This document shows, piece after piece, positions 28,399 to 64,000 of a DNA stretch of 64,000 bases. Where the stretch lies: assembly GCF_022808775.1 (NCBI RefSeq), contig NZ_JAKZLA010000001.1:1-64000 (forward strand). Reading direction: 5' to 3'. Made by a program: the position numbers and the translations under genes. The stretch is from Geothrix terrae. GTDB taxonomy: Bacteria; Acidobacteriota; Holophagae; Holophagales; Holophagaceae. Under the pieces are notes generated by a model that saw only the letters and a program-made list of their open reading frames with translations, was not told where the DNA came from and ran no database searches. Within the stretch, counting starts at the first letter, position 1; each line of letters starts with the position of its first letter.

Positions 28399-28401
28399 GA
28401 C

Positions 28402-28914: not shown

Positions 28915-28929
28915 GGGTGCGACGCTGGC

Positions 28930-29053: not shown

Positions 29054-29055
29054 TG

Positions 29056-29598: not shown

Positions 29599-29605
29599 GG
29601 GAACA

Positions 29606-30486: not shown

Positions 30487-30526
30487 TGATGACTCCTGGG
30501 GATTGAAGGTAAATGACTTGGTCGCC

Positions 30527-30683: not shown

Positions 30684-30786
30684 AAACCATCCTTTTCATC
30701 CCGATCACCCCCGGAATCCCACCGCTCGCCCCAGGTCCCTTCCGGTTCCGGGGGCTTCGGTCCAGGATGCTTCGCGGAGGTGTCCC

Positions 30787-42461: not shown

Positions 42462-42995
42462 TCAGGGCTTGCCGGGGGGTGGCGTGACGATGCTGTGGGC
42501 ATCCTTGGCATCCATGGTCCAGGGCACCTCTTTGCGGCCCACCTGCGGCGGGGCGGCGAAGGCGATCTCCTCGACCATCCAGGCGCCTTTCAGCTTCCGG
42601 AAGTGGTAGGTCATCTCATAGCGGTCCACGGAGGCCTCGCCCACCTGCTCTCCCGTGCCGGTCCTCAGGTCCCGGTAGCGCCACTGCTCCCGGGTGCGCA
42701 CGCGCAGGTCGCCTCCGGCCTGTTCGACGCTGGTCACCTCCAAGGATTCCAGGTGGGCGTCCAGGGCGATGCCCATGTCGGCATGCACGCCGATGAGGCC
42801 GGTGAGCCGCCGGCCATCCGGCGCGTTGGGGCCCACCACGGCATCGATGAGGAGGATGTCGTTCTTCCGGTAGGCCTCGCTCACCACCTCGTTGTAGCGG
42901 GTCACCAGGGCGCGGGCCTGCCGGTCTGACACGCGGCCACAGCCCAGGGCGAGGGCCGCCAGGATCAGGGAATAGAACCAGGGGCGCAGGGTCAT
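42462..42995 (-). CDS. Hypothetical lipoprotein in the cytochrome maturation operon
   Basis: 177 residues with lipobox LALGC. The mature part looks like an NTF2/Tim44-like helical-beta fold (RQARALVTRYNEVVSEAYRKNDILLIDAVVG, EQWRYRDLRTGTGEQVGEASVDRYEMTYHFRKLKGAWMVEEI). The ATG at 42,995 overlaps the resB stop (ATGA), and ccsA starts 15 bp after its stop. Its fixed place between resB and ccsA suggests a role in heme attachment or cytochrome delivery, by context only. Confidence 0.75.
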   Translation of the reverse strand: MTLRPWFYSLILAALALGCGRVSDRQARALVTRYNEVVSEAYRKNDILLIDAVVGPNAPDGRRLTGLIGVHADMGIALDAHLESLEVTSVEQAGGDLRVRTREQWRYRDLRTGTGEQVGEASVDRYEMTYHFRKLKGAWMVEEIAFAAPPQVGRKEVPWTMDAKDAHSIVTPPPGKP

Positions 42996-44311
42996 GCCTC
43001 TCCTCCATGCTCGCGAACGAGCTGCGCGAAGCGTTCCTGGAACAGCGGCGCGAACCGGTGGGGCTTCAGCGCCACGACCACCCGCTCTCGGCCATCTTCC
43101 GGCGTCACGCTGACCAGCTCGTCCACCCGCGTCACCCCGTAGGTGAGGGCCGCTCCCGCCAACGCGACGATGAAACCGGCGTAGGCGAGTCCGATGGCGG
43201 GATCGTGGCTGCCGTGGAGCCGGGCCCAGTAGGGGAGCCCGTGCAGGCGGAACGTCCCGCCGCCGGGCAGGGCCAGGGCCTCGCCGGGCCGGAGGTCGGC
43301 CTCCGCGACGCGAAATTCTCCCTGGAGGATCCGCACCTCGGCATGGTTGGGGCGGCTTCCGCCCGCCGGCATCGGCACCCGGATGCGGGCCCGGAGGGAG
43401 CCGGGGCCCGGCGCGTAGGCTCCGAAGGCCTGCGGTTCCTTCCGCTCCAGGAGGACGGCCGTCCGGGAATCGGGGTTGGAGGCCCCGTCCCAGACCACCA
43501 GGGCGGCCGGTCCGAAGAGGCTGTCGGCATAGAGGCGCCCCCGGCTGACACGGAGATCCTGGTTGATGCTCAGGTCCCGGATCGGTCCGCCCTCCGCGGC
43601 GCCCTCGGCCACCTTCAGGCGGAGACCCATGAGGTCGCCGCCCTGGTAGCGCGTCGGCTCCACTGACACCAGCCTCAGAGAGCTGTCGAGCCGGAAGGGG
43701 GAGGCCAGGGGGCCCGGCTGCTGAAGGCCCCAGGCCTCCACGGTGGGGGGCAGGGTCTCGCCTTCGAAGAGGTCCACCACGGCCTGCACGCTGAAGAGGG
43801 CCCCCAGGGCCCCGGCGAGGATCACGGCCAGGAGGCCCGTGTGGAACAGGGGGGAGCCGGCGAGCCCAAGCCGCCCCCGGCTGCGGACGGATCGGGAGGC
43901 CGGCCCCTGCCCGGGGCGGGTGAACTCGAGCCGGAAGGGTGCGTTCCTGAAGTGGGCTTCGGTGGGAACCTGGCTCCAGGTCGCCCGGAGCCGCCGCGTC
44001 TGCTCGACGACCACGATGACGAGCGAGGCCGTGGCGAAGGCCAGCGCCCCGAGGAACCACCCGCTGGTGAAGACATGGTCCAGGGACAGGCGTTCCACCA
44101 GGACGGACGCGAAGGCGCCGTGCGACCGCAGGCTCGCGACCTGGGCCGCCGGGGATCGTCCGGCCTGGGGCAGGCTGGCTCCGAGGGCGCAGGCGGCGGT
44201 GATGACGAGGATCTCCGCGACGATGACGGCCGGCCGGCGAAGGAATCGCCTGACCGGGAGGAACGGGTTCCATCCCGGCATGGAGCGGAGGACCTCGTCG
44301 CGCGGGCTCAC
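42992..44311 (-). CDS. resB: ResB/Ccs1-family cytochrome c biogenesis protein
   Basis: 439 residues. Membrane helices lie near 27-45, 82-105 and 152-175 with a large extracytoplasmic domain (about 180-385) and a last helix (DPAIGLAYAGFIVALAGAALTYG), the ResB layout. PLFHTGLLAVILAGALGALF carries the helix histidine. It starts with GTG overlapping the stop of the 13-heme cytochrome gene (GTGA), so synthesis is coupled to that of its presumed substrate. It works with CcsA encoded two genes downstream. Confidence 0.9.
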   Translation of the reverse strand: MSPRDEVLRSMPGWNPFLPVRRFLRRPAVIVAEILVITAACALGASLPQAGRSPAAQVASLRSHGAFASVLVERLSLDHVFTSGWFLGALAFATASLVIVVVEQTRRLRATWSQVPTEAHFRNAPFRLEFTRPGQGPASRSVRSRGRLGLAGSPLFHTGLLAVILAGALGALFSVQAVVDLFEGETLPPTVEAWGLQQPGPLASPFRLDSSLRLVSVEPTRYQGGDLMGLRLKVAEGAAEGGPIRDLSINQDLRVSRGRLYADSLFGPAALVVWDGASNPDSRTAVLLERKEPQAFGAYAPGPGSLRARIRVPMPAGGSRPNHAEVRILQGEFRVAEADLRPGEALALPGGGTFRLHGLPYWARLHGSHDPAIGLAYAGFIVALAGAALTYGVTRVDELVSVTPEDGRERVVVALKPHRFAPLFQERFAQLVREHGGEA

Positions 44312-49933: not shown

Positions 49934-51288
49934 TGGATACTCCCGGTCAAGTTGACCACGGTCACGTCGGCGATGCTTTCGAAGGCCCGTCCATCCGTCA
50001 GCCGGCCGGAGAGCACCAGGAAGGCGCTGCCGTCGGGCATGGTCGCCAGCAGGCGATCCTGGTCGAACCAGGCTTGGTACTCCACCCGGCCATCGAGGTC
50101 GAAGTCGCCGAGGAAGGCGCCGGGAACGCGGGTGGCTGGTACGCCGTTGGCGGTGAGGGATCCCCCTTGAATGGCGGAGGGATCCACGCCGGGGACCTTG
50201 ATCAGGACTGACACCAGGCGCCGGTGCTGGATCTCGGGGAGCTCCCCGGACCGGCGGGCCTGGGGACCGCGGGGTCGGGCTCCGAGGGCGGAGAAGCGGC
50301 GGTCATCGGGATCTTCGCGCACCCACTGGGTGGGCTTCACGGTGAGGCTGGCGGAGAGGATGTGGGGATCGGTGTAGGCGTCCAGGCCGTAGATCTCGAC
50401 GCGGGTGTTGCCCGGCGCGGCCACCAACAGCCGGTGGTTCCGGTCCACCACCAAGCTGGCGGGACCGCTGAGTTGGCCGGGATCTGAACCGAATGAGCCG
50501 AGGTTGCCGAGGATCGCGCCGGTGGCGGCATTCACCACCACCACCACGCCGCGATAGGAATCCGCCAGGAACAGGCGCCCCTGGGCATCCGCGAGCATGC
50601 CCTGGATGCGGCCGAAGGTGGTGTTGGAGCCGATCATGCCGATGGGGCCGCCGAACTTGCGCAGGTACGCGCCGTTGGCGTCGAAGACCTGGATCCGCTC
50701 GTTCCCCTGGTCGGAGACGAAGACCTCGCCCGTGGGCCCCACGGCCAGGCCCGTGGGGAAATTGAGCTGCCCCGCCTGGATGCCGGGGGTGCCGAACTGG
50801 CGCACCAGCTGGTTGTCGGGACCGTAGACCTTCACCAGGTTCGCCAGGCTGTCCACCACGTAGACCAGGCCGTCGGGGGTGATCTGGAGGTGGTTGGGCA
50901 TCAGGAACTCGCCATCGCCCTGGCCCAGGTAGCCGGCGGGAACCCAGCCCGAAGTGAAGATGGCCACCCGGCCCTTGCCCGCTTCGCAGACGAAGATGCG
51001 GCCCGAAGCGTCCACGGCCACGCCCAGGGGCCGGTCGAGGCCGCGCCGGATGGCGAGGAACTTCCCGGTCTCATCCCGGATGCTGATGGCGCCCAGACGG
51101 GGATCCGCCACGTAGAGGCGTCCTGCCGAGTCTGTGGCCAGGCGCACAGGTTCGCGGAAGCCTTTGTCATAGGATCGCAACGGCGTGGCTGTGGGGAGCA
51201 CAGCCTGAGCCACCAGGCCCGAGGCCGCCGGCGCCAGCAGAATGGCGGGCAATGCCCAGGAACGGAGGGAGATGAACCAGCCGTTCAT
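49930..51288 (-). CDS. NHL-repeat beta-propeller protein
   Basis: 452 residues with a signal-like N-terminus (SWALPAILLAPAASGLVAQA). Residues about 45-320 form NHL blades (VRLATDSAGRLYVADPRLGAISI, PTGLAVGPTGEVFVSDQGNERIQVFDANG and others). A C-terminal beta-rich domain has LTANGVPATRVPGAFLGDFDLDGRVEYQAWFD, a Hedgehog-like or Ca-binding-like DxDGR motif. It is the first gene of the leftward cytochrome operon, with GGAGG eight bases upstream. NHL proteins often accompany extracellular cytochrome genes in Geobacter. Confidence 0.87.
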   Translation of the reverse strand: MNGWFISLRSWALPAILLAPAASGLVAQAVLPTATPLRSYDKGFREPVRLATDSAGRLYVADPRLGAISIRDETGKFLAIRRGLDRPLGVAVDASGRIFVCEAGKGRVAIFTSGWVPAGYLGQGDGEFLMPNHLQITPDGLVYVVDSLANLVKVYGPDNQLVRQFGTPGIQAGQLNFPTGLAVGPTGEVFVSDQGNERIQVFDANGAYLRKFGGPIGMIGSNTTFGRIQGMLADAQGRLFLADSYRGVVVVVNAATGAILGNLGSFGSDPGQLSGPASLVVDRNHRLLVAAPGNTRVEIYGLDAYTDPHILSASLTVKPTQWVREDPDDRRFSALGARPRGPQARRSGELPEIQHRRLVSVLIKVPGVDPSAIQGGSLTANGVPATRVPGAFLGDFDLDGRVEYQAWFDQDRLLATMPDGSAFLVLSGRLTDGRAFESIADVTVVNLTGSIQ

Positions 51289-51599
51289 GATGACGACCTC
51301 CAGAGGATCGGGGCTGCGGTGGGGGGGGGGTGAACCAGATCTGTGGACCTGGATCCCTTGAGCGTAGAGAGATTTTGCTTTTCACGATAACGATGTGATC
51401 TATGTCGTGTAACGCGCCTTGGTTGTGGTTGCCAACAAGCACGATCGTGGTTGGCTTTGGCCAGGAAAAAACACCTAGATGACAGAAATCACAAAAATAG
51501 ATGACCTTTAGTTCGCTTATGGGCCCTATGGTTTCGGGGGTCGGCTGACAGGTTTCTGTGACGTTGTCCGATGCAAGACATCCACGAGGCAAAAAAGCC
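51289..51599. promoter_or_regulatory. Divergent promoter region of the two NHL/cytochrome operons
   Basis: 311 bp between the leftward operon start (51,288) and the rightward NHL gene (51,600). It contains a TCAC-N9-GTGA dyad at 51,382-51,398 and a CACGATCGTG palindrome at 51,440-51,449 flanked by CCAAC/GTTGG. Both are candidate operators for shared control. A run of nine or ten G lies near 51,320. No riboswitch of the GEMM class recognised. Confidence 0.4.
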
Positions 51600-52667
51600 A
51601 TGTTCAAGCGTTCCACCCTGCTGTCCGTCGCCCTCGCGTGCATCGCGAGCGCGACGGCGCCTCTGTCCGCGCAGAAGCCCGCCGCCCCTCCCGTGGCGCA
51701 GGACGAGGTCCTGGCCTGGCCGCCGCCGCCGTCTCCCACCCGCATCAAGTGGGTGGCCGAGTACCGCAACGCCTTCGACGTGGGCGCCAAGAAGAAACGC
51801 AGCTTCATCGACCGCCTGGCCGGCAAGGCCGAGGAGGTGGTCTGGCTCCAGCGTCCTTTGTCCGTGGCGGTGGACGACAAGGGTGTGATCTTCGTGGGCG
51901 ACTTCACGGCCGGCATCGTCGCCATGGATCCCGCCAGCAAGAAGATCTGGGCCTTCTCGACCGTCAGCGGGGCCATCCTGGCCACACCCACAGGCCTGGC
52001 AGTGGACTCAAAGGTGGTCTATGCGGCCAGCGCCAACACGAACCAGGTGGTGGTCTTCGACAAGGAGGGTCGCCAGCTCAGCGCCCTCAGCAAGAACGAC
52101 GGCATCAACCGCCCCGTGGGTCTGGCCGTGGACGAGGCCCGGGACCTCCTGATCGTGGTGAACGGTGGCGAGCACACCGTGCGCCTCTACAACCGGAGCC
52201 TCAAGCTCATCAAGACCATCGGTGGCCGGGGCAGCGAAGAAGGCCAGTTCAACTTCCCCTCCTACACCTGCATCGTGCCGGGCGTGGGCTTCGCGGTGGT
52301 GGACACCGGCAACTTCCGCGTCCAGATCTTCGATTTCAACGGCCGGTTCCTGCGGGCCTTCGGCAAGGCTGGCGACATGCCCGGCCAGCTCTCCCGCCCC
52401 AAGGGCATCGCCGTGGATCCCGAGGGCCACCTCTACGTGGTGGACGGCGCCTTCTGCAACTTCCAGATCTTCGACCAGGAAGGCCGGATCCTCCTGCCCG
52501 TGGGCACGGGCGGCGTACGGAAGGGCCAGTTCCAGATCCCCACCGGCATCGCCATCGGGGCCGACGGCGGCATCTACGTGGCCGATCAGATCAACGGACG
52601 CATCCAGAAATTCCAGTATTTGCGGGAGGAGAAGGGGGCGCCTGCCCCCGGACCGACCCCGCAATAA
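51600..52667 (+). CDS. NHL-repeat/6-bladed beta-propeller exported protein
   Basis: 355 residues with a signal peptide (LLSVALACIASATAPLSAQ). A short proline-rich lead (LAWPPPPSPTRIKWVAEY) is typical of this family. About six NHL blades follow (PLSVAVDDKGVIFVGDF, PTGLAVDSKVVYAASANTNQVVVFD, PKGIAVDPEGHLYVVDG, PTGIAIGADGGIYVADQINGRIQKF). The start at 51,600 removes a short unrelated in-frame lead. It heads the rightward set with tetraheme cytochrome, barrel, octaheme and isomerase genes. Confidence 0.88.
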   Translation: MFKRSTLLSVALACIASATAPLSAQKPAAPPVAQDEVLAWPPPPSPTRIKWVAEYRNAFDVGAKKKRSFIDRLAGKAEEVVWLQRPLSVAVDDKGVIFVGDFTAGIVAMDPASKKIWAFSTVSGAILATPTGLAVDSKVVYAASANTNQVVVFDKEGRQLSALSKNDGINRPVGLAVDEARDLLIVVNGGEHTVRLYNRSLKLIKTIGGRGSEEGQFNFPSYTCIVPGVGFAVVDTGNFRVQIFDFNGRFLRAFGKAGDMPGQLSRPKGIAVDPEGHLYVVDGAFCNFQIFDQEGRILLPVGTGGVRKGQFQIPTGIAIGADGGIYVADQINGRIQKFQYLREEKGAPAPGPTPQ

Positions 52668-52724: not shown

Positions 52725-53387
52725 ATGAAGTCCCTTCTCGTCGCCCTCCTGGCCGTCGGCTCCCTGAGCCTGAACGCGACCATCGTCGGCTCCAAGCACG
52801 ACCTGAGCAGCACGGGCCCTGGTGGCAAGACCAACACCACCCAGGTCTGCGTGTTCTGCCACACGCCCCACGGTTCCGCCACCGGCGCCGCCCAGATCGT
52901 GCCCCTGTGGAACAAGACCACCACGGTCACCACCGGTTTCTCGATGTACACCAGCGGCACGCTGAACGGCACCACGGACGCCACCCCCACCGGCGCCAGC
53001 ATGGCCTGCTTCACCTGCCATGACGGCACCCAGGCCGTGGGCAACATGATCAACCTGCCCAACGACATCGCGTCCGTCACCTACACGGCCGGCGGCCAGC
53101 TGCTCGGCACCGGCCTCGTGTCCGGCACCGCCCTGCTCGGCAAGGACCTCACCAACGACCACCCGATCTCCATCACCTACCAGCAGAACCTGGACGCCAC
53201 GCTGAAGGATCCCACCACCTTCGCCGCGGGCACCGTGCGCCTGTTCCCCACGAACGCCAACGGCTCCAAGGTCCAGTGCGCCTCCTGCCACGACGTCCAC
53301 AACTACGGCACCGCCGGTACCACCGCGCCCTTCCTGCGCGTGACGATGGTCGGTTCCGCCCTCTGCACCTCCTGCCACCTCAAGTAG
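52725..53387 (+). CDS. Tetraheme cytochrome c (paralogue 1)
   Basis: 220 residues with a signal peptide (SLLVALLAVGSLSLNA). Four CXXCH: CVFCHTPHG, CFTCHDG, CASCHDVHN and CTSCHLK, the last at the very C-terminus. The layout (HDLS start, LWNKTTTVTTGFSMY between hemes 1 and 2, LTNDHPISITYQ before heme 3) is shared with the gene at 61,548. Probably a periplasmic electron shuttle to the adjacent conduit. A good ribosome binding site is GAGGTGAACC before the ATG. A strong hairpin follows the gene. Confidence 0.92.
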   Translation: MKSLLVALLAVGSLSLNATIVGSKHDLSSTGPGGKTNTTQVCVFCHTPHGSATGAAQIVPLWNKTTTVTTGFSMYTSGTLNGTTDATPTGASMACFTCHDGTQAVGNMINLPNDIASVTYTAGGQLLGTGLVSGTALLGKDLTNDHPISITYQQNLDATLKDPTTFAAGTVRLFPTNANGSKVQCASCHDVHNYGTAGTTAPFLRVTMVGSALCTSCHLK

Positions 53388-53408: not shown

Positions 53409-53445
53409 GCGGGGGGTGGGGTTCCACCCGCCCCCCGCTTTCTTC
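53409..53445 (+). terminator. Terminator or attenuator after the tetraheme cytochrome gene
   Basis: GCGGGGGG...CCCCCCGC stem around a GTTCC loop followed by TTTCTTCT. The barrel gene starts only 25 bp later, so this may cut expression of the downstream genes relative to the abundant small cytochrome. Confidence 0.6.
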
Positions 53446-53469
53446 TGGCCTCCTTCCCGAAGGTCTGTT

Positions 53470-55230
53470 GTGAAGCTATGCCTTCTCACCCTGGTGCTCG
53501 TGGGCGCGGTCGCGGCCCGGGCCGAGGACTGCCCGCTGATCCTCAACCAGCGGTTCCAGCTCCACTACAACCAGTGGCAGTCCAATCAGGCGCCAACCAT
53601 GGCGACCACGCAGGCCGTCTACGAAGTGGACGCGGGCGTCCCGATCTTCACCTACCGCCTGGGGGCCCTGGCCCTCAACGGCGCATTGGAATACAACCGG
53701 CTGGCCTACGGCGCCGCCACGGATTCCGATGCCGGTATCAGCCGCTATGGGGCGCGCCTCAGCCTCTTCCCCTACCGCCCCTTCCGCCTTTATCTGGATT
53801 ACCAGCACTCCCAGTCGCCGGACCTCTTCGATTCAGGCCGCGTGAAGGGCGATACCTGGGGCGCCGGCGCCACCTACCACAGCCGCATCCTCCAGGATGT
53901 CCGCCTCTCCTACCGGCACGGGGATTCGAAGCTGGGGGACGAGCGCGAGGATTGGTCCCAGTGGAAGCTGGAGGCGAACCAGCGGGTGGGCGGCACCCAG
54001 GTCACGTTCCAGTCTCTGCGGCAGGATTACGAAACCCGCATTCCGGGCCAGGGTTGGCGCTACTTCCAGGCGAACCTGGACACCGAATCCCATTCGGCCG
54101 CCGACTGGACCCTGCGGACGCGGTCCCAGTTCCAGGATTCCATCAGCAGCAGCTGGTTCGACGCCGGAGCCACCTTCTACGGACCCATCAGCGGGGCCTG
54201 GCATTCCCTCACGAATGCCTCCGCCGGAGCCAGCACCACCGGGGACACCCGCACGGGCCACACCTTCGCCTCCGAATCCCTGGTCTATGCCGCCGGGCGC
54301 TGGAACGCCTACGGCACCGGCGCGATGAGCCGGACGCTCACGGACGCCGCGGGCCAGGACACGCGGATGGATTCCGGCACCCTGGGAGGCACCTACACGC
54401 TGACGCAGGACTGGCGGATCCACGGCGACCTGGGTGTCTCGGCCTTCGAGCAGGGCCTGCCGGCTCTCGTCATCCGGCGCACCACCACGACCATGAACCT
54501 TGGCATCGCCCGCGGCGGCGATGTGCCTGAACTCATCCGGCACACCCTCTTCTTCCTCAGCGACTGGTCTTTCACCCGCCGGACCACGGAGGAATACCCG
54601 CCCGACTACGTGCCTTCGGAGCTGGCTCAGGAGCTGTTCCAGCGGCGCATGCGTCAGACGGGCAATTTCGGCTTCACGGCGGACCTCTGGCGCATCTCCG
54701 ACAACGCCAGCCAGGGCCGGGTGGACTGGGCCCGGTTGACGGGCCAGATCCAGACCCGGGGGCGCCTCACGCTCTACGTGGCGGGCGACTACAAGGACGA
54801 CCGCGGCCTCTCCATTCCCGGCGTCGAGGCGCGGAACACCGACCTGATGATGAATGGCTCCTACCAGCTGGGCATCACGTCGATCACGGCCTCCGCGGGC
54901 TATTCCAGCAACAGCCAGCGTCTCACCCCGGGGGCGGCGGCCCCCATGGCCACCTGGGCCGGCGCCCAGGATGAATCGAGCCGCCACTACGCGTTGGGGC
55001 TGTCCACCCGGCTGGGGAAGGTTCCCGTGGGCGCCCTGGTCCAGCGCTACGATGCGGCCCTCACTCCGGCGGCCACGACGCTCTACACCTGGGCGGACCT
55101 CAGCTTCCGGCAGGTCTCGCTCCGGGTGCGCTACGAGACCACCCGTATGGACAACGGGCTCCACAGCAGCCGCATCACGGTGGACCTGCTGCGCTGGTTC
55201 GATACCATCTGCTCGAGGGCCTGGCGATGA
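53470..55230 (+). CDS. Outer-membrane beta-barrel protein (porin-cytochrome conduit type)
   Basis: 586 residues. The signal peptide is LCLLTLVLVGAVAARA. The mature protein is a series of alternating amphipathic strands (FQLHYNQWQSNQ, ALEYNRLAYGAATD, RLYLDYQHSQSPD, LSYRHGDSKL, TLYVAGDYKDD, LRVRYETTRMDNG) with no other domain, as in MtrB/PioB-like barrels. GTG at 53,470 with GAAGG 6-7 bases upstream is the best start. Its stop overlaps the start of the next multiheme cytochrome gene (ATGA), supporting a barrel-cytochrome complex. Family identity is by architecture, not by a specific motif. Confidence 0.8.
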   Translation: MKLCLLTLVLVGAVAARAEDCPLILNQRFQLHYNQWQSNQAPTMATTQAVYEVDAGVPIFTYRLGALALNGALEYNRLAYGAATDSDAGISRYGARLSLFPYRPFRLYLDYQHSQSPDLFDSGRVKGDTWGAGATYHSRILQDVRLSYRHGDSKLGDEREDWSQWKLEANQRVGGTQVTFQSLRQDYETRIPGQGWRYFQANLDTESHSAADWTLRTRSQFQDSISSSWFDAGATFYGPISGAWHSLTNASAGASTTGDTRTGHTFASESLVYAAGRWNAYGTGAMSRTLTDAAGQDTRMDSGTLGGTYTLTQDWRIHGDLGVSAFEQGLPALVIRRTTTTMNLGIARGGDVPELIRHTLFFLSDWSFTRRTTEEYPPDYVPSELAQELFQRRMRQTGNFGFTADLWRISDNASQGRVDWARLTGQIQTRGRLTLYVAGDYKDDRGLSIPGVEARNTDLMMNGSYQLGITSITASAGYSSNSQRLTPGAAAPMATWAGAQDESSRHYALGLSTRLGKVPVGALVQRYDAALTPAATTLYTWADLSFRQVSLRVRYETTRMDNGLHSSRITVDLLRWFDTICSRAWR

Positions 55231-56417
55231 GGCGATTCCTCCTGGGTGCCGCGATCGTGTGGCTGGCGTTGATTCCGGTCGCGGGCCAGGCCATTCGGGC
55301 CCCGCAGCCCGTCCAGGTCCGGGGCGGCCCTTCCCTCGCCCATGCGGCCTGCGCCGCCTGCCACCAGGGGCACCGGGCCGTGACGCCCGCCCGGTCCAAG
55401 GCCGGGCGCGGGAACCCCGACCGGGTCTGCCTGGCCTGCCATGAGGGGACAAACCTCGCCACCACGGCGGATCACGCTCCCAAGCTGCCCCCCTGGAACG
55501 GCCAGGGCTCCGGCCACCTCAGGGATCGCCTCGGCGCCCGCCGGCCCACCGACTACCGACGGGCCGTCCGCCAGGGTGGCCGTGTGGTGACGCTCACCCA
55601 GGACTGCACGGGCTGCCACGACCCCCACGGCAAGGAGCGAGGCCGCCTGCGCCTCACCGCCTTCGACGTCCGCGGTCAGCTGCTGGACCGCCGGCCCCAG
55701 TCCGTGGCCGAGGTCTGCTTCGGGTGCCACGCCGGCCCCGAGGCGGCGCCCCTCCTTTCCGGACCCGCCGACCTGGGCGCCCTCTTCGCCAAGGGTGCCG
55801 CCTCCAGCCACGCCATCGGCGCCACGGCTGCCGGCCGCCCGGACCTGCCCAGCCTTCGGACCTCCACCTTCCGGGATCCCCTCGACTGCGGCTCCTGTCA
55901 CGACAATCCGGATTCGGCGGGCGCGAAGGGGCCCCACGTCTCTCCCCAGGCCTCCATCCTGAAGGCCGCCTTCGGGCGGGAGAAGGATCTGGCCCGGCTG
56001 GGGGAGCGCGCCAACGACCTCTGCTACCTCTGCCACGACCGGCAGTCCATCCGCGCCAACCAGTCCTTCCCCTTCCACGCCCAGCATCTGAGCGGGTTCA
56101 CCAGCAGCGGCTCCGTGGCGGCCCAGCGGCAGACTCCGGCCCTCTCCGAGGCCTCGGCGGTGCTGGGCCTGCGCTCCCCGCGGGACTTCCGGCCCGGGCG
56201 AGGCGGCGCCTTCCAGCCCGGCTACGGCGAGCCCACCACCTGTGCCACCTGCCACGCGTCCCACGGCTCCCTGCGGCAGGCCTCCCTCATCGAGTTTGAC
56301 CGCTCCGTGGTGGGCGCTTCCTCCGTGGGCGCCCCTTCCTTCCAGCGGTCGGGCCTCGGCCACGGCACCTGCACCCTCAGCTGCCACGGCTACGACCATG
56401 TGCAGACGCGCTATTGA
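55227..56417 (+). CDS. Multiheme c-type cytochrome, seven CXXCH plus one CX3CH
   Basis: 396 residues with a signal peptide (FLLGAAIVWLALIPVAGQA). Seven CXXCH motifs (CAACHQG, CLACHEG, CTGCHDP, CFGCHAG, CGSCHDN, CYLCHDR, CATCHAS) and a final CTLSCH, a CX3CH variant that may bind an eighth heme. Translationally coupled to the barrel gene. It is the best candidate for the heme wire inside the barrel. Confidence 0.9.
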   Translation: MRRFLLGAAIVWLALIPVAGQAIRAPQPVQVRGGPSLAHAACAACHQGHRAVTPARSKAGRGNPDRVCLACHEGTNLATTADHAPKLPPWNGQGSGHLRDRLGARRPTDYRRAVRQGGRVVTLTQDCTGCHDPHGKERGRLRLTAFDVRGQLLDRRPQSVAEVCFGCHAGPEAAPLLSGPADLGALFAKGAASSHAIGATAAGRPDLPSLRTSTFRDPLDCGSCHDNPDSAGAKGPHVSPQASILKAAFGREKDLARLGERANDLCYLCHDRQSIRANQSFPFHAQHLSGFTSSGSVAAQRQTPALSEASAVLGLRSPRDFRPGRGGAFQPGYGEPTTCATCHASHGSLRQASLIEFDRSVVGASSVGAPSFQRSGLGHGTCTLSCHGYDHVQTRY

Positions 56418-56453
56418 TCGCGGGCCGTCCAGGTGTTCTTCCAGGAGCTTTCC

Positions 56454-58010
56454 ATGCATGACGCCCCCTCGTTGCGGAACGGCTTCACCCGGGTCCAGAT
56501 GGCGATCCTGGTGGGCGCGCTCGGGCTGGGCCCTGCCATGACGGCGGCGCCCATCCGTCGTCAGGCCCGCATGGTCGATGCCGAGGCGGAACACCTGAAA
56601 GCGATCCGGGCGGCGGCGCCGGGCTTATCCGTCGAAGCGGCGAGAGTCAGGCTCGCCCGGCTGGAGAAGGCCTGGGCACTGGCCACGGCCAAGGGCCTTC
56701 TGAAGACCCCCGAGTGGCAGGAGCGGCGTCAGGAGGGGCGCCAAGCCGTGCTGGGGAGGGCCTACCTCGACTCCCGGCCAAGTCATTCCGGCATGACCGA
56801 GGAGCAGGTCAAGGCCGCCTTCCTGGCCCAAGGCGAGGAACGCCATGTGTCGCACCTCCTGTGCAAGACCCAGGCGGATGCCGAGGCGGCCTTGAAGCGC
56901 ATCCAGGCGGGAGAGCCTTTCGAGAAGGTGGCGGCGGAGGTCTCCGTGGATCCCAGCGCGGCCCAGAACCAGGGCGACCTGGGCTGGATCCGCCAGAAAC
57001 AGATGGTGACCGCCTTCGGTGATCCCGTCTTCGCGGCCCCCGTGGCCGCGCTGGTGGGTCCCCTGCAGAGCGAGTTCGGCTGGCATGTCGCCAAGGTCTG
57101 GGAAGCCCGGCACGAAACGGAGGCGGACTTCGCCGTGCACCGGGAAACCCTGCTGAAGGAGGCGGCGGCCACCCAGATGAAGATGAAGCGGGAGGCTGCC
57201 CTGGAGGCGCTCCGCCCCCGGTATCCCCTGGTTCCCGATCTGGCCGTGCTGGGCGCGGACCGCACCACGGAGACTCTGCCCGGCGATGAGAAGAAGGTCG
57301 CGGGCCGGGTGGCAGGGGCGGCCATCAGCCTGCGGACCCTCAAGCGCCACCTGGTGGATGTCCTCAAGACCATGGGCTCGAGCCACTCCCTGGGAGCGGC
57401 CACCAAGGCCCGATTCATGGAGGGCGTGGCGGACGACATCCGTCTGTCCGAGGCGGCCCGCAAGCAGGGGCTGGATCGCCGCCCCGGGATCCAGGCCGCT
57501 CTCTGGCTGGACGAGCGGGAACGTGCCTACACCCGGTACGCGGAGGCCTTCCTCGCCGAGGCGCAGGTGTCCGAGGCCGAGCTGGCGAAGCACCACGGGG
57601 CCTTCCCCGACCGCTTCCGGCAGGTGGGGGGCCTGCGCCTGCAGGTGCTGGTGGCCGATTCCAAGGACGAAGTGGACGCGGCCCTGAATGGCGTGCGGAC
57701 TGGCCTGCCCTGGCGGGAGGCCGTGGCGCGGTATGCCAGCGCTGAGGCCACGGGCAACCCCGAGCCCGGCTGGGTGGAGGTGGCCTCGCTCAAAACGCTG
57801 GTGCCCCCCACGCTCATGCAGGCTCTCCTGGCAGGGCCCCTGGGCCAGCCGGTGGGCCCCATGCTGGGCCCGGATGGCTACATGATCTTCAATGCCCTGG
57901 AGCGCCGCCCCGGCCCTGTGATGCCCCTGGAGGAGTGCCGGGAGGCCGTGCGGGCGGACTACCTCAAGGCGCATGGCCACGACCTGGTGGAGCGCAGTCT
58001 GGGCGACTGA
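56454..58010 (+). CDS. Parvulin-type peptidyl-prolyl isomerase, exported
   Basis: 518 residues. AGGAG six bases upstream selects ATG 56,454 over GTG 56,433. N-terminal signal or anchor (MAILVGALGLGPAMTA). A PPIC/rotamase domain lies at about 129-219 (RHVSHLLCKTQADAEAALKRIQAGEPFEKVAAEVS ... GDLGWIRQKQMVTAFGDPVF ... FGWHVAKV). A second, degenerate parvulin-like domain lies near 385-480 (LQVLVADSKDEVDAALNGVRTGLPWREAVARYA). Such SurA/PrsA-like chaperones fold exported proteins; next to barrel and cytochrome genes it may assist their assembly. Confidence 0.9.
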   Translation: MHDAPSLRNGFTRVQMAILVGALGLGPAMTAAPIRRQARMVDAEAEHLKAIRAAAPGLSVEAARVRLARLEKAWALATAKGLLKTPEWQERRQEGRQAVLGRAYLDSRPSHSGMTEEQVKAAFLAQGEERHVSHLLCKTQADAEAALKRIQAGEPFEKVAAEVSVDPSAAQNQGDLGWIRQKQMVTAFGDPVFAAPVAALVGPLQSEFGWHVAKVWEARHETEADFAVHRETLLKEAAATQMKMKREAALEALRPRYPLVPDLAVLGADRTTETLPGDEKKVAGRVAGAAISLRTLKRHLVDVLKTMGSSHSLGAATKARFMEGVADDIRLSEAARKQGLDRRPGIQAALWLDERERAYTRYAEAFLAEAQVSEAELAKHHGAFPDRFRQVGGLRLQVLVADSKDEVDAALNGVRTGLPWREAVARYASAEATGNPEPGWVEVASLKTLVPPTLMQALLAGPLGQPVGPMLGPDGYMIFNALERRPGPVMPLEECREAVRADYLKAHGHDLVERSLGD

Positions 58011-58057: not shown

Positions 58058-58093
58058 GACGTGGGGGCGGACAGCTCTCCTGGGAATGCGATC

Positions 58094-61000
58094 CTACGAG
58101 TGGCAGGCGTCGCAGCCGGAGACGGCCAGGAGCTTCGGGCTCTTGGAGAAGTGGGGCTGATGGCAGGACAGGCAGGTCAGGGGCTTGCCTGTGGCCTTGA
58201 TGGTGCGGTCCGAGGTCGGATGGTTGGCCACGGGGTGGTCAGCCTTCTTGTCCTTGTGGCAGTTCAGGCAGAGGCTCTGCACGTTCCCGCGGGGGAAGCC
58301 CTTGGCGTCGCCGCCGTGGGCCGTGTGGCAGGTGGCGCAGAGTCCGTCCATCACGGGCTTGTGCCGGGAGGCCGCCTTGGTGGCCTCCTCCCGCAGCCCG
58401 TCATGGCACTGGAGGCAGAGATCCCGCGGATTGCCCGCCAGCAGCGAGGGCAGGGTGGATGCGTGGGGCGTGTGGCAGGCGGTGCACTCGCCGTTGGCCA
58501 CGGGGGGGTGGGGGAAGGCCTTCTTGGCGGCCGTGGCCACGCCGTCGTGGCAGTTGAAGCAGAGGCCGGGCATGGCTTCGCTGGTCGCGAAGGGCTTGGG
58601 CGCGGCGGGGTTCACATGGCAGGTGCTGCAGCCGCCCTCCGCCACCGGGGGGTGGGCCGTGGCCTTGAGCATGCCGCCGTTGTTCGAGCCATGGGGATCG
58701 TGGCAGGTGGCGCAGTCCTTGGCGGACACGGGATAGCCTTTGTGGGCCTTCTTCAGGTCCCCGGCGTCATGGCAGCCGATACAGAGCTCCTCCACGGGCT
58801 GCAGGAGGCCCTTGGCCAGCTTGCCCGTATGGGCCCCGTGGCAGCTGAGGCATTCGCCGGAGGCGGCGGGCTGGTGGGCGTGCTTGGACTTGATGGCCGT
58901 GGCGATGGCCGTATGACAAGTGAGGCAGAGATCGAGGGGCTTCTGGCGCAACAGGTGCGGAGCCTCGGTCTGATGGGGCGCATGGCAATCTCGACAGTCG
59001 CTGTCAAGGTAGGGCTTGTGTCCCCAGCCACCCTGGGGTGGCTCGGTCTTCTCGTGGCAGGTGAGGCAGACCTGGCTGCCGGGCTTGTCCAGCAGGCCTT
59101 CGTTTTTCGAGGCGTGGGGCCGGTGGCAGGACATGCACTCGCCGCCCTTGAAGGGCTGGTGCTGGGTGGCACCGGCCTTGGGCTCCAGGTCCGCGTGGCA
59201 GCCCTGGCAAAGCTGGGGCACGGGCTGGTCCAGGCGGGGCGTGCCCACCGGGAGCTTGGCGCCGGGGACCGGGGCCATGTGGCAGTTGGCGCAGCTCTCC
59301 AGGAAGGGGGGATGGGCGCCCTTGAGGATCAGGCCCTTCTTCGTCGAGGTGTGGGGCTCGTGGCACCCCAGGCAGTCCACCTTCGCGAGGGAGCCGGTGA
59401 GGTGCTTCCGGCCCAGGGCTTCGTCGGCCAGATCGTGGCAGGTGGCGCAGGTCTCCTGGATCCGGGGGGAGGCCAGCAGGGCCGGCCCGCTGCCGGAGTG
59501 GGGGCTGTGGCAGCTGCTGCACTGGCCGTCGTTCACCGGGGAATGCACGACCTGGAACCTGTCCTTGCGGGTGTGGCAGGCGTAGCAGCCTTCGGGTTGG
59601 TCACGCCTGAGGAACTTGGCCTGGTCGCCGCCGTGGGGATCGTGGCAGGCGAGGCAGCCGCGCTTGCCGGTGGCGGGCTGGTGCTTGGCGTCGCCCTTCA
59701 TCAGGTCGCCGTGGCAGGCGGTGCAGAGCTTCTCGGTATCGTCCTTCACGAGCTTCGCGAGCGCGCCGCCGTGAGGCGTGTGGCAGGCGCTGCACTGGCC
59801 GTTCTTCACGGGGGCGTGGAGCACCTTCCGCTTCACGATCTTCTCGTGGCAGGCACCGCAGGCGGCCAGCTCGCCGCCCTTGATGAGCTTGGCGGACGCT
59901 GAGGCGTGGGGCGTGTGGCAGGCGAGGCACTGCCCCTTCTTCGCCGGGGCATGGGCCACCTCGCCCTTCGCCACGCCCGTGTGGCAGGTGGCGCAGAGCG
60001 TCTCGCCGGGCTGCTTCAGGACGGGAGCCGTGGCGGTGGCGTGGGCCCCGTGGCAGGCGAGACAGTCGCCCTGGGCGGCCGGAGCGTGCTGGCTCCTGCC
60101 CTTGACGAGAGCCTCGTGGCAGGTGAGGCACAGCTGGTTCGCGGGCGCGGTGAGGAGGGCCTTCTCCTTCGAGTCGTGCGGCCGGTGGCAGTCCATGCAG
60201 GCGCCGTCCCGGAAGGGCGGATGCAGGGACTTCCCCTTGGCGAGGTCCGCGTGGCAGCCGGTGCACAGCTCCTGGGGCGGGGCCGTGAGGAGGCCCTTGG
60301 CATCCCCGGCATGGGGCCGGTGGCAGGTGAGACACTTCCCATCCTTCGCCGGCTGGTGCTGAACGCCGGGGCCGGGCAGGGGGCCGTGGCAGTCGAGGCA
60401 CAGCTCCGGCACGGGCTTCGCCAGTTTCACGGCGCCGCCGGCGGCGGGCGCGTGGCAGTCGGCGCAGTAACCAGGCGCGAAGGGGGCGTGCTGGCGGTCG
60501 CGCAGCAGGCCCTTGGCCGCGCCGCCGTGGGGGTTGTGGCAGGTGGCGCAGGCCTCCGCCTTCAGGGGGAAGCCGCCGTGGGTCTTCGAGAGGCCGGCCA
60601 CGTCATGGCAAGTGCCGCACTGGCCCGGAACGCCCGCCTTCAGGAGGTTGCGCGTGGCGGAGGGATGGGGCTGGTGGCAGGCCAGGCAGTCGTCCGTGGC
60701 CGGATGGGGATGGGCCGACGTGGTGCGGGCCTTGATGTCCGCGTGGCAGGAGAGGCACAGCTCCTGGACGTCCTTCCGGAGCAGGCGCCTCCGCCCGGTG
60801 TCGTGGGAGCCATGGCAGGCGCCGCACTCGCCCTTGGATTCGAAGCGGTGCGCCGGGCGCTCCTCGGCGGTCCGCTTGAAGCCCTTGTGGCAGATGGCGC
60901 AGAGGACTCGGCCGCCACCCTCGTGGAGCAGGTTGACGTTCGCTGTGCCGTGGGGCTTGTGGCACCACTGGCACTTCCCGTCGAGCAGGGGCTTGTGGGC

Positions 61001-61138
61001 CGTGGTGGGAGAGGCGGCCTGACGGACCTTGGGATGGCATTCCTGGCATGTTCGGGGCGCGTCTGCGGCCCGGCAGGGCACAAGGCCCGCCAGCAAAGCG
61101 AACAGAAGGAAGGCGAGGGTCCGGCGTGAAGGGGTCAT
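58094..61138 (-). CDS. Giant multiheme c-type cytochrome with 42 CXXCH motifs
   Basis: 1014 residues from the ATG at 61,138 (an in-frame ATG at 61,189 would add 17 residues before the signal peptide). Signal peptide TLAFLLFALLAGLVPCRA. I count 42 CXXCH motifs, about one per 24 residues, spread from residue 30 to the last residues (CDACHS). They alternate between CxxCHxPH (for example CHKPHG, CHRPHA) and LCxxCHxxL, a repeat unit of about 45-50 residues occurring some twenty times. Conserved distal His (for example KxxHxP) may be second axial ligands. Probably periplasmic or surface-located with very high heme capacity. No domain besides the repeats. Confidence 0.95.
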   Translation of the reverse strand: MTPSRRTLAFLLFALLAGLVPCRAADAPRTCQECHPKVRQAASPTTAHKPLLDGKCQWCHKPHGTANVNLLHEGGGRVLCAICHKGFKRTAEERPAHRFESKGECGACHGSHDTGRRRLLRKDVQELCLSCHADIKARTTSAHPHPATDDCLACHQPHPSATRNLLKAGVPGQCGTCHDVAGLSKTHGGFPLKAEACATCHNPHGGAAKGLLRDRQHAPFAPGYCADCHAPAAGGAVKLAKPVPELCLDCHGPLPGPGVQHQPAKDGKCLTCHRPHAGDAKGLLTAPPQELCTGCHADLAKGKSLHPPFRDGACMDCHRPHDSKEKALLTAPANQLCLTCHEALVKGRSQHAPAAQGDCLACHGAHATATAPVLKQPGETLCATCHTGVAKGEVAHAPAKKGQCLACHTPHASASAKLIKGGELAACGACHEKIVKRKVLHAPVKNGQCSACHTPHGGALAKLVKDDTEKLCTACHGDLMKGDAKHQPATGKRGCLACHDPHGGDQAKFLRRDQPEGCYACHTRKDRFQVVHSPVNDGQCSSCHSPHSGSGPALLASPRIQETCATCHDLADEALGRKHLTGSLAKVDCLGCHEPHTSTKKGLILKGAHPPFLESCANCHMAPVPGAKLPVGTPRLDQPVPQLCQGCHADLEPKAGATQHQPFKGGECMSCHRPHASKNEGLLDKPGSQVCLTCHEKTEPPQGGWGHKPYLDSDCRDCHAPHQTEAPHLLRQKPLDLCLTCHTAIATAIKSKHAHQPAASGECLSCHGAHTGKLAKGLLQPVEELCIGCHDAGDLKKAHKGYPVSAKDCATCHDPHGSNNGGMLKATAHPPVAEGGCSTCHVNPAAPKPFATSEAMPGLCFNCHDGVATAAKKAFPHPPVANGECTACHTPHASTLPSLLAGNPRDLCLQCHDGLREEATKAASRHKPVMDGLCATCHTAHGGDAKGFPRGNVQSLCLNCHKDKKADHPVANHPTSDRTIKATGKPLTCLSCHQPHFSKSPKLLAVSGCDACHS

Positions 61139-61547: not shown

Positions 61548-62246
61548 TCACTTCTTGTGGCAGCTCCGGCAGAGGAAGGAACCCTCCATGGTTGCCCGCA
61601 GGAACGGTGCCGTGGTTCCCGGTGTGCCGTAGTTGTGGACATCGTGGCAGGAGGAGCACTGCACCTTCGCGCCCGTGACGTTCTCCGGATAGAGGCGCAC
61701 GGCGACGAGGGAGGCTGCGGGCTGGAGACCGGTGTCCAGGTTGTCCTGGTAGGTGATGGAGATGGGGTGATCGTTGCTCAGGTCGGTCCCAACCAGAGCG
61801 CTGCCGCTGCTGATGCGGCCGGTGCCCGGGCTGACGCCTCCCTTCGCGCTGATGTAGGTGTCGTTGCCGCCGCCGAGCGGAGCGACCACCAGGGAACCCA
61901 CGGCCACCGAGCCGTCATGGCAGGAGAGGCAGGCCAGACTCGGCCCTGTGGGTTGCGAGTCCACGGTGCCCTTGAGGTTCGCGCCGGCGTGGTTCGTGTT
62001 GTTGTACATCGTGAACGCCGCGACGGTGGTGGTGTGGTTCCAGTCCGGGATGAGCTTTGAGCTGCTTCCGCCACCGGGGTTGTGGACTGTGTGGCAGAAC
62101 ACGCAGGACCTGGTCGCCAGGGTCACGGAGTTCAATCCCGTGATGCTCAGGTCATGGGCCGTTCCGTCCACTCCCATGGCGGGGGGAAGCGCCAGAAGAA
62201 GGGTCGGTGCGAGGGCGATGGCAAAGGCACGCAGGCAGATGCGCAT
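61548..62246 (-). CDS. Tetraheme cytochrome c (paralogue 2)
   Basis: 232 residues. AAGGAG seven bases upstream supports the ATG at 62,246. Signal peptide LRAFAIALAPTLLLALPPAMG. Four CXXCH: CVFCHTVHN, CLSCHDG, CSSCHDVHN and CRSCHKK at the C-terminus, in the same order and spacing as the gene at 52,725. Shared phrases include LSNDHPISITYQ and NYGTPGTTAPFLR. Likely periplasmic shuttle. Preceded by an A/T-rich stretch that may hold its promoter. Confidence 0.92.
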   Translation of the reverse strand: MRICLRAFAIALAPTLLLALPPAMGVDGTAHDLSITGLNSVTLATRSCVFCHTVHNPGGGSSSKLIPDWNHTTTVAAFTMYNNTNHAGANLKGTVDSQPTGPSLACLSCHDGSVAVGSLVVAPLGGGNDTYISAKGGVSPGTGRISSGSALVGTDLSNDHPISITYQDNLDTGLQPAASLVAVRLYPENVTGAKVQCSSCHDVHNYGTPGTTAPFLRATMEGSFLCRSCHKK

Positions 62247-62662
62247 GGCGGTCTCCTTCAACCCTGCTATCGGCTCCTATGGGAATTAAAATAATATGAA
62301 AACTCGTTCAATCAAAAAAATACAAGAATATCTGCTTTGGATGCAACGGGGCGCACACTGCGAAAGCCCCCTGGGATGGGTCCCCAGCGGGTCCTTCGAA
62401 CCTGCATCCGAAATGGATGAGCTTTCCGTGTCTGTGAGCGGCTTTTCGACCATCTGCGCCGGCTTCTTTAATCAGCCGGGGTGCACGAAGGTGGCCTCGG
62501 GGGGTGCCCCTGAGTCACACCGCGTCGGCGATGGCCTTGCGGCCCATGTCGGGGGTGCGGGGCCGTGGTCCAGACCCACGCCACGGGTCTGACGCCGAGA
62601 CAGGGAACCCTCCGGCCGCGCTGAATCTCCAGAACTCGGCTGTTGTGCGGGTGTCGGATGGA
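62247..62662. promoter_or_regulatory. Intergenic region upstream of tetraheme paralogue 2
   Basis: About 415 bp. The part near 62,285-62,335 is A/T-rich (minus strand TTGATTGAACGAG...CATATTATTTTAATT) and is the likely promoter zone of the tetraheme gene; I cannot fix -35/-10 spacing. The part near 62,568-62,592 has overlapping short dyads (CCGTGG/CCACGG, AGACCC/GGGTCT) after the NHL gene stop and could aid termination. No ORF with coding character. Confidence 0.35.
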
Positions 62663-64000
62663 TCAGTCGAGGTTCAGCTGCATGACACCCCAGGCGGAAG
62701 CCGTATAGAGGGTGCCTCCACGGAGGGTGATGCCCGAGCCGAGGAAGTTCAGGGTTTCGGGGGTGTTGAAGACCGGAACCCGGCAGGCCACGCCGATGGG
62801 TGAGATCTGCAATGGATCGTTCCTGCCGAAGTCCTGGACGTAGACGTTGCCGTTGCCGTCCACCGCGATGCCGCTCGGCGAGTGGATGAGCTGGCCCACA
62901 TCCGCCACGCTGGCGCTGCCCGCGCTTCCGAGTGTGAAGTGGAGGGTGGTCACCGCGCCATCGGGAGTCATCCGTCGAATGGCAGCGTTGTAGCAATCCG
63001 CCACGAAGATGGTTCCCGAAGGATCCACGGCGATGCCGTAGGGATGGTTGAATCTCGCCGAGGTGCCGGCGCCGTCCGTGAACCCAGCCTGCCCGGCTGT
63101 TCCCGCGAGGGTCGTGACCAGGCCATCGGGGCTCATGCGTCGAATGGCGTTGCCATCGGTCACATAAAGGTTGCCCGCGGCATCGGCGGTGATTCCCGAG
63201 GGTGCCGTGAGCCGGGCCTGGATGCCCAGTCCGTCCTGGGTTCCCTTCAGGCCGGCGGTTCCAGCCACCGTCGTGACCTCCCCGGCCGGGGTGATCTTCC
63301 GGAGGGTCGCATTCAGGCTATCCGTCACGAAGACGTTGCCGGACGCGTCGACAGCCGTGCTCACGACCGCGCCGAAGAGGGCCTGGGAAGCCGGGCCGTC
63401 GAGGGCTCCGCTCTGGTTGGGGACTCCGGCGTAGGTGCTGACGGTGCCCGTCGGTGTGATTTTCAGGATCGTGTTGTTGCTGGAGGGCACAAAGGCATTG
63501 CCGGCGGCGTCCATGCCGAAATTCACGGGGCCGAAACGGGCGGGTCTCTGCTGGCCCGCCAGGGTGGTCACCTCGCCATCCGGGCTGATGCAACGGATCG
63601 CACTGTTCTGGTAGTCGGCGACCAGCACCTGACCGGCGGCATCCACGGCCAATCCGGAGATGGTGGTGAACCTGGCCGTGGTTCCTGGACCGTCGATCCA
63701 GTCCAGGTGCCCCTCAGCGCCGGCAAGGATCGAAACCACGCCGGCCGGGGTGATCTTGGCGATGGCATTCTCCCCGCCCACGAACAGGCTGCCGTCGGAG
63801 CCGAGCGCCAAGGCGTTGGGGCCCCACAAGGGCAGGGTGGTCGGCCATGGCGCGCGGGTGGTGACGAGTCCTCCAGGGGTGATCGACCGGATGGCCCAGT
63901 TGCCGCTGTCCACCACCTGGAGGGTGCCTGAGGTGTCGACGACGAGCCCGCTCGGCCGGACGAATCGGGCCGAGGACCCGGACCCGTCGACGCGTCCAGC
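62663..64000 (-). CDS. NHL-repeat protein, partial (5' end beyond the window)
   Basis: At least 445 residues remain; the frame is open to base 64,000 and begins mid-blade (RVDGSGSSARFVRPSGLVVD), so the start and signal peptide lie outside. Repeated blades have the pattern PSGIAVDxxGNVYVxDxxNxxIRxITPxGxVTTLAG, for example DGPGTTARFTTISGLAVDAAGQVLVADYQ. The C-terminus (TPETLNFLGSGITLRGGTLYTASAWGVMQLNLD) differs. Third NHL protein of the cytochrome locus. Internal GTG/ATG codons near 63,916 are not the true start. Confidence 0.88.
   Translation of the reverse strand, partial: AGRVDGSGSSARFVRPSGLVVDTSGTLQVVDSGNWAIRSITPGGLVTTRAPWPTTLPLWGPNALALGSDGSLFVGGENAIAKITPAGVVSILAGAEGHLDWIDGPGTTARFTTISGLAVDAAGQVLVADYQNSAIRCISPDGEVTTLAGQQRPARFGPVNFGMDAAGNAFVPSSNNTILKITPTGTVSTYAGVPNQSGALDGPASQALFGAVVSTAVDASGNVFVTDSLNATLRKITPAGEVTTVAGTAGLKGTQDGLGIQARLTAPSGITADAAGNLYVTDGNAIRRMSPDGLVTTLAGTAGQAGFTDGAGTSARFNHPYGIAVDPSGTIFVADCYNAAIRRMTPDGAVTTLHFTLGSAGSASVADVGQLIHSPSGIAVDGNGNVYVQDFGRNDPLQISPIGVACRVPVFNTPETLNFLGSGITLRGGTLYTASAWGVMQLNLD

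Follow-up and report, generated by a model that had tools for sequence, protein, structure and literature searches.

What does a single bacterial polypeptide do with 42 predicted hemes? The question is raised by a stretch of the Geothrix terrae genome (NCBI RefSeq assembly GCF_022808775.1, contig NZ_JAKZLA010000001.1, positions 1 to 64,000; these 64,000 nucleotides are referred to here as the window), in which a minus-strand open reading frame (ORF) at 58094-61138 encodes a cytochrome of 1014 amino acids (aa), counted from the ATG at 61138. We found that this protein, judged by its sequence, is a natural fusion of a 26-heme and a 16-heme cytochrome, joined between hemes 26 and 27, and that 64 of 66 complete systems of the same architecture, whether fused or split into two genes, total exactly 42 CXXCH motifs. 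This near-constant total suggests a molecular wire of set length carrying electrons across the cell envelope. Our best explanation, to which we assign a probability of about 0.57, is a secreted, probably periplasmic, fused and peptide-minimised wire that serves a cytochrome-nanowire system.

Motif number, module order and fusion

A preliminary description of this DNA had claimed 42 CXXCH motifs in about 1000 residues, and direct counting bears this out: the ORF holds 42 CXXCH and no CX3-4CH motifs, while 2,000 residue shuffles of the protein had a mean of 0.61 CXXCH and a maximum of 5. Only one of the 85 cysteines lies outside the motifs, as do 46 histidines, and the N-terminus resembles a signal peptide and is followed by a run of doubled-CXXCH modules. 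The protein belongs to the doubled CXXCH cytochromes, which are marked by the paired CXXCH module: in Pfam, PF09699 (doubled CXXCH) matches it over 21 stretches (663 bits), and TIGR01905 matches over 20 stretches (617 bits). Neighbouring motifs are 22-28 residues apart (with exceptions of 32 and 20 at the end), and the density is one motif per 24.1 residues overall, in line with the one per 24 described earlier, and one per 23.4 between the first and last motif; from residue 26 on, the apo-protein has a mass of 103.8 kDa, or 2.5 kDa per heme. The alternation of modules in some twenty repeats, also described earlier, is recognisable in the 21 PF09699 stretches; it is not strict, and its phase is broken at sites 9/10, 26/27 and 35/36. 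Third-position G+C is 0.91 in this reading frame, and two long plus-strand frames antisense to it (58061-59902 and 59906-61129), which are expected because third positions are so G+C-rich, were not taken as genes.

At E 1e-50 the gene was found in 9 of 47 Geothrix genomes, the window genome included (30 of the 47 have a completeness of at least 90%), with two copies each in G015 and G017; matches include G. paludis SG195 (92%) and G. fermentans DSM 14018 (85%). Variation in repeat number had been suggested as a point to check among strains; checked at species level, the number was constant, as 42 motifs were counted in all 11 Geothrix sequences (the window's and ten more with 56-92% identity to it) but one, L005, which has 43. 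The exception retains the old motif 26 together with a new motif ten residues further on, and two other sequences (L006 and L007) carry the motif at the new place only, with none at the old motif-26 place; heme site 26 thus seems to have moved by ten residues via a 43-heme form, with the total back to 42. The further claim that the heme number lies near the upper end for a single polypeptide did not survive, since 86 motifs in one polypeptide have been published (PMC12133095, PMC7096707; here and below, papers are cited for the portions of their text that were available). The result is a conserved unit of 42 hemes, strikingly constant in number.

Systems for the wider count were found by similarity to the 42-heme architecture, and the constancy holds for that architecture. 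The 66 complete systems consist of 16 fused genes (15 with 42 motifs, one with 43) and 50 pairs, the latter made up of 34 pairs (33 of 26+16 and one of 26+14), the pair L164 and 15 further ones, all 26+16; the fused gene with 43 motifs and the 26+14 pair are the two systems that depart from 42. In the order of the Desulfuromonas genome G070, the 26-heme protein was matched in 42 of 136 genomes at E 1e-60, and all 48 places found there with the 26-heme query at this threshold were examined: 41 hold complete pairs, 40 of them 26+16 and one 26+14 (L102, the same as L203), in which the gene ends 41 bases from the contig end. The seven incomplete places are cut by a contig end (L110, L111, L121, L124, L186 and L200) or have broken frames (L201), and six genomes have two places each, both 26+16 in every one. 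Acidobacteriota, with 26 places at E 1e-60, yielded 13 complete fused genes (12 with 42 motifs, one with 43) and five complete 26+16 pairs (L162, L163, L164, L169 and L170); incomplete there are a fused gene cut at a contig end (L132) and the pairs L139, L140, L142, L143 and L145, cut in the stretch, and at L144/L166 a 16-heme gene has no 26-heme frame before it. The remaining systems of the 66 came from other searches, in which the fused L041 and L043 are cut. Relatives of other architecture were left out of the count, among them L047 (25 motifs), L066 (20) and L048, L056 and L059 (14). L047 (9206-11836), one gene with an extended N-terminal region, comes from a genome in which there is a 26+16 pair as well (L093), and another Acidobacteriota genome holds a 21-motif relative of different module order (L146/L202; L202 3154-4968).

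Fused genes occur beyond the genus in other Acidobacteriota families (complete in G295, G454 and G241; cut by a contig end in G277), and elsewhere, including in other Acidobacteriota and one Eisenbacteria record, the system is split into adjacent genes with 26 and 16 motifs. The window protein itself has 26 motifs and then 16 in the fixed module order of such pairs, which we call the OscI/OscJ type after the Geobacter proteins discussed below. Separate 26-heme proteins placed best on hemes 1-26 of the fused protein (4/4), and separate 16-heme proteins on hemes 26-41 or 27-42 (3/4), L045 scoring higher at 1-16. A mixed alignment of fused and split forms (A2) apparently sets the 16-heme proteins on hemes 1-16, its invariant columns ending at residue 386, and was judged an artefact of global alignment. 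When module order is written as a string, with H wherever CXXCH is followed by xxH (42 places for the window protein), the only disagreement over hemes 1-39 among 31 systems (the window included, L005 excluded for its 43 motifs) is an additional H in L154; some of them differ over hemes 40-42. Seven split systems (L045, L046, L162, L163, L164, L169 and L170) are identical to the window string at all 42 places; the other split systems of this set differ at two or three places at hemes 40-42, with a further difference at heme 12 in L154. L098 and L100 show single departures within their 26-heme part. This string could serve as a signature for finding the 26+16 system in genomes, and the natural fusion itself argues that the two proteins, of 26 and 16 hemes, function together as a unit.

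A 31-tip tree contains one branch that separates the 14 fused from the 17 split systems (support 100 or 94 by side after re-rooting). The tree is unrooted and one fusion or one fission would account for it; we favour fusion because the split form occurs in more lineages. A lipobox-like signal is present in 30 of 38 of the 26-heme frames, in 1 of 39 of the 16-heme frames and in 1 of 16 fused frames.

The preliminary description had attributed the modules to growth by unequal recombination, and here the distant past and the present have to be told apart. An ancient internal duplication is likely from the comparison of distant systems: the same-position register had the best mean score of all registers from -12 to +12 in 11 of 11 systems, and in 10 of 11 a register shifted by nine hemes (-9 in nine systems, +9 in one) ranked within the top four, an echo that points to an old 9-heme unit. 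Ongoing growth found no such support. In the DNA, Tandem Repeats Finder (TRF) reported only 9-12 base arrays of about two copies and nothing repeated in tandem with long units; nearly all complete systems total 42, and within the genus diheme windows best match their own position in 38-41 of 41 cases (nine homologues). Between distant systems and phyla this own-position test breaks down (0-10 of 41), since the modules of a single protein resemble one another, the best internal diheme identity being 43-68%; for such comparisons we used diagonal means and module-order strings in place of positional best-match counts.

Candidate heme ligands and predicted fold

In an alignment of 13 fused sequences, the window's included (A3), the 46 non-motif histidines of the window protein include 42 that never vary, which equals the heme number and gives the fused forms one invariant histidine besides the motif for each heme. 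No row lacks a motif at 41 of the 42 sites; site 26 is intact in 11 of 13. For the 16-heme half, 44 sequences were selected by their 16 motifs; these motifs fall into common columns, and 14 histidines outside them are invariant.

An AlphaFold model of the 16-heme half, built from these 44 sequences, reached a mean predicted local distance difference test score (pLDDT) of 90.4, and its sole Foldseek match below E 0.001 was chain A of the Mtr complex (6r2q, E 3.1e-7), which we take to be MtrA. By VIA-align the model superposes on this chain with Z 10.8 and a root-mean-square deviation (rmsd) of 3.4 over 172 residues, the next row having Z 4.4; OmcE (7tfs) reached a VIA Z of only 2.5, and OmcS, HAO and other folds were lower or absent in this list, where neither rank nor absence amounts to exclusion. 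The profile A1 also matches 6r2q_A in sequence (E 4.8e-19), under an entry label of cystathionine beta-synthase. The predicted fold of the 16-heme half is thus like that of Mtr chain A in the model: local geometry matches, overall shape does not. This likeness and the peptide-minimised array of doubled CXXCH support, by inference, the earlier suggestion of a heme wire or charge store.

Gene neighbourhood and co-occurrence

Between the two OmcE-like ORFs of the window (Table 1) lie the 42-heme gene, the 604-aa ORF, the seven-heme cytochrome and the prolyl isomerase, and NHL propellers flank the set. Both tetraheme neighbours match the solved OmcE filament (7tfs) in sequence and were therefore classed as OmcE-type, and the 42-heme gene, with a prolyl isomerase and a nanowire cytochrome nearby in the window, has the surroundings of the OscI/OscJ type. 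No Pfam match of the 604-aa ORF was found at 0.001, and a Pfam scan of 18 window proteins did not find MtrB. Over the 47 Geothrix genomes, counted without correction for common descent, the 604-aa gene occurs in the same nine genomes as the 42-heme gene, and the OmcE-like gene in those nine and in G011, a 72% complete genome. In all 12 of the loci L148-L159 the 26-heme gene comes immediately after a prolyl isomerase gene (by profile, E 5.4e-4 or better) and an NHL gene follows the 16-heme gene; no counterpart of the 604-aa protein was found in the other loci searched with an hmmsearch profile at E 0.05.

In two of these loci (L148 5952-8341 and L152 5301-8051), small ORFs that resemble lipoproteins and LpoB separate a large barrel-like ORF from the prolyl isomerase and may have a part in export. 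Cytochrome neighbours with 10 and 13 motifs recur in other bacteria (L009, L012, L013, L029, L073 and L075, some frames being cut by the locus end) and are possibly a parallel system. Within the window, the two adjoining 13-heme genes (44308-46887 and 46955-49933), beside ResB- and CcsA-like maturation genes, are a tandem duplication. Further away, positions 24500-30500 have a G+C of 42-57% against 67% for the window and few likely genes, and are probably a foreign island; no Rfam match was found in 24000-31000.

Table 1. The 42-heme cytochrome gene, its parts and neighbouring genes in the window
Feature	Position	Strand	Evidence or remark
42-heme cytochrome, 1014 aa	58094..61138	-	Signal peptide, then 42 CXXCH; alternative in-frame ATG upstream at 61189 would lengthen the protein by 17 aa
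C-terminal half, hemes 27-42 (residues 626-1014)	58094..59263	-	Counterpart of the separate 16-heme gene
Fusion point, heme 26/27 linker (residues 621-643)	59210..59278	-	Site of greatest length difference between homologues
OmcE-like tetraheme cytochrome (nanowire subunit)	61548..62261	-	Query 61548-62246: 7tfs E 6.1e-23, 9yuq E 5.1e-24
Second OmcE-like tetraheme cytochrome	52725..53387	+	7tfs E 3.1e-33, 9yuq E 4.6e-31
PPIC-type prolyl isomerase, likely periplasmic chaperone	56433..58010	+	PF13145, PF13616, PF00639
Seven-heme doubled-CXXCH cytochrome	55227..56417	+	Motif count, Pfam
604-aa protein, perhaps outer-membrane barrel	53416..55230	+	Reading of sequence; no Pfam match
NHL beta-propeller protein	51558..52667	+	Pfam
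NHL beta-propeller protein, cut by window end	62663..64000	-	Pfam
NHL beta-propeller protein	49930..51288	-	Pfam
13-heme cytochrome	46955..49933	-	Motif count, Pfam
13-heme cytochrome, 71.7% identical to adjoining one	44308..46887	-	Motif count, Pfam, comparison
ResB-like protein (cytochrome c maturation)	42992..44311	-	PF05140
CcsA-like cytochrome c assembly protein	41619..42446	-	PF01578

Proposed function, alternatives and known systems

The Geobacter counterparts of the two halves appear to be GSU2495 (oscI) and GSU2494 (oscJ, also PccJ) of the operon that accompanies omcS, matched by heme number, gene arrangement and the many matches in the Desulfuromonas order, not by their sequences. 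GSU2495 of Geobacter sulfurreducens has 26 motifs (PMC2996986), is termed peptide-minimised and has about 70 kDa (PMC12977616); the gene names stand in a table of PMC13194489, and the two genes are located in the omcS region (PMC3495685). The osc operon has been proposed to act in folding, secretion and morphology (PMC13194489). With Fe(III) oxide, gsu2495 is increased in a strain deficient in omcB (PMC10599522), and in Geobacter soli (FH versus FC) the pccJ transcript rises 30-fold and that of the gene with the preceding number 31-fold, like omcS and omcT (PMC6013743); we infer that this preceding gene is the 26-heme gene.

In the mechanism that we propose, a 26-heme and a 16-heme partner of the OscI/OscJ type would be fused into one periplasmic cytochrome, whose 42 hemes would form a single unbroken stack of MtrA-like geometry. 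Inner-membrane quinol oxidases or small periplasmic cytochromes would feed electrons into this stack, along which they would hop for about 300 angstrom until, at the outer membrane, they pass to the OmcE-like cytochrome filament of the same gene cluster. A review puts the number of peptide-minimised hemes needed to cross a 200-angstrom periplasm at about 27 and the reach of 86 at 630 angstrom (PMC7096707), and by our own arithmetic from its linear fit 26 hemes would measure about 190, 16 about 117 and 42 about 308 angstrom. A more specific version, which is possible but doubtful, is that the number is held at 42 as on a ruler, because the wire must span from the inner to the outer membrane and plug into the base of the nanowire, the 26 hemes crossing the periplasm and the 16 MtrA-like hemes reaching into or across the outer membrane. 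If this were true, one covalent chain in Geothrix would join the respiratory chain to the filament without diffusing carriers.

Several observations weigh against the proposed wire. Across phyla, the C-terminal half has no invariant extra histidine for 2 of its 16 hemes; the global TM-score of the half model to 6r2q_A is low (0.34 by model, 0.48 by target, rmsd 16.2); and full-length AlphaFold modelling of 13 fused sequences failed (pLDDT 39, predicted TM-score 0.22), from which we draw no conclusion and which leaves the chain through all 42 hemes, including the first 26, unmodelled. The filament link is seen only for the Geothrix type and one genome of the same family (L039), with Geobacter known from papers: searches of the stretches that surround the fused genes L160, L165, L161 and L038/L167, outside the genus, turned up no OmcE-like protein, and at E 0.001 nothing in the PDB matched two cytochromes that adjoin split pairs. 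From the literature, the available part of the Geobacter soli study gives no protein value for pccJ or its neighbour (PMC6013743), a table in PMC9248073, citing Aklujkar 2013, gives a GSU2494 mutant the wild-type phenotype, and an oscJ frameshift is listed in the mutation table of a 17-year anode culture study (PMC13194489); the pair would therefore be dispensable under some conditions. PpcA-E, moreover, can charge OmcS filaments directly (PMC10954620).

Among other explanations, it is unlikely that the protein is mainly a periplasmic electron store, a capacitor whose 42 hemes would hold electrons while the acceptor is out of reach, path length being secondary. With 42 candidate redox sites per molecule it could act as one, and a capacitor role has been proposed for the large PCC3 cytochromes (PMC10734462), yet a store should tolerate changes in heme number, and the systems described here nearly always total 42 in a nearly fixed module order, while PCC3 periplasmic cytochromes are listed with 21, 24 and 27 hemes (PMC10734462). 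More unlikely still is an assembly or charging scaffold of the nanowire export machine, which would keep new OmcE- or OmcS-type subunits reduced or positioned, while they fold and are exported beside the prolyl isomerase, and not be the main conduit: the prolyl isomerase and NHL genes that frame the pair in all 12 loci L148-L159 and the role proposed for the osc operon speak for it, but the accessible text of PMC13194489 proposes no function for OscI/OscJ themselves, and the heme load would be far above a scaffold's need.

It is improbable that the protein is a terminal reductase or filament subunit at the cell surface or outside the cell. Large many-heme extracellular cytochromes exist (PMC5566968), and the Geobacter soli gene beside pccJ is listed as periplasmic or extracellular (PMC6013743), but the Geobacter sulfurreducens counterparts are listed as periplasmic (PMC13194489, PMC10599522, PMC9248073), and the half fold matches chain A of the Mtr complex, with OmcE far behind. 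We give hardly any credence to an actively expanding or contracting repeat array, an idea that is contradicted for the 42-heme architecture: the alikeness of internal modules, the register-9 echo, the single 43-motif homologue and relatives with other numbers (25, 21, 14) would fit it, but the count is near-constant both among homologues 56-92% identical and across phyla, and TRF shows nothing beyond the short arrays noted above.

It is not settled by what route electrons pass through the periplasm to reach cytochrome filaments outside the cell. OmcS filaments can be charged by diffusing triheme carriers (PMC10954620), yet a mutant without triheme carriers and PgcA gave wild-type-like electrode current, which was taken to mean that unidentified periplasmic routes exist (PMC12307469). 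The nearly fixed 42-heme pair, which Geothrix has as one fused chain, offers a concrete candidate, and a near-constant heme number over several phyla makes it a testable claim that length matters. That large cytochromes may span the periplasm is an idea already published (PMC7096707, PMC10734462, PMC5566968). In the literature searched, in which Shen et al. 2025 and Aklujkar 2013 were represented through citing papers only, we found no report of a 42-heme cytochrome or a 26/16 fusion, nor of the near-constant 26+16 sum, the fixed module order or the fusion within an OmcE-type cluster.

Set beside known systems, the 86-heme cytochromes of Desulfuromonas acetexigens and A. oligotrophica also have very many CXXCH motifs, with twice the heme number, a comparison by count only. 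The PCC3 clusters of iron oxidisers likewise have a very large periplasmic cytochrome proposed to span the periplasm (PMC7096707, PMC10734462, PMC5566968); by description, to which this likeness is limited, they differ from the Geothrix cluster in having an inner-membrane protein with HX13H motifs and a large extracellular cytochrome, and in a heme number that varies, in the extracellular protein from 10 to 63. The Uet complex of Tenderia and Gallionella, like the window, brings together a tetraheme cytochrome, a prolyl isomerase and NHL proteins, with a barrel (PMC10734462) to which the 604-aa protein would perhaps correspond; again by description only, Uet has the undecaheme UetJ and the trihemes UetDEG where the window has 42-, 13- and 7-heme cytochromes, and no undecaheme or triheme frame was found within the window, where the frames with at least three motifs have 4, 7, 42, 13, 13 and 4. 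Wires of the MtrA/DmsE type share the doubled-CXXCH chain and align with the 16-heme half over 172 residues, and their profile TIGR03508 gives the whole protein 394.8 bits (cut-off 192.2), but this score is summed over 9 stretches; they have ten hemes and a profile of 258 positions, whereas the Geothrix protein has 42 hemes in 1014 residues. A close parallel in layout is OscI/OscJ, which, like the 42-heme protein, combines a 26-heme peptide-minimised cytochrome with a second cytochrome near a nanowire cytochrome and is periplasmic by annotation; there, however, the two are separate genes and the nanowire subunit is OmcS, whereas in Geothrix they form one fused gene beside an OmcE-like subunit.

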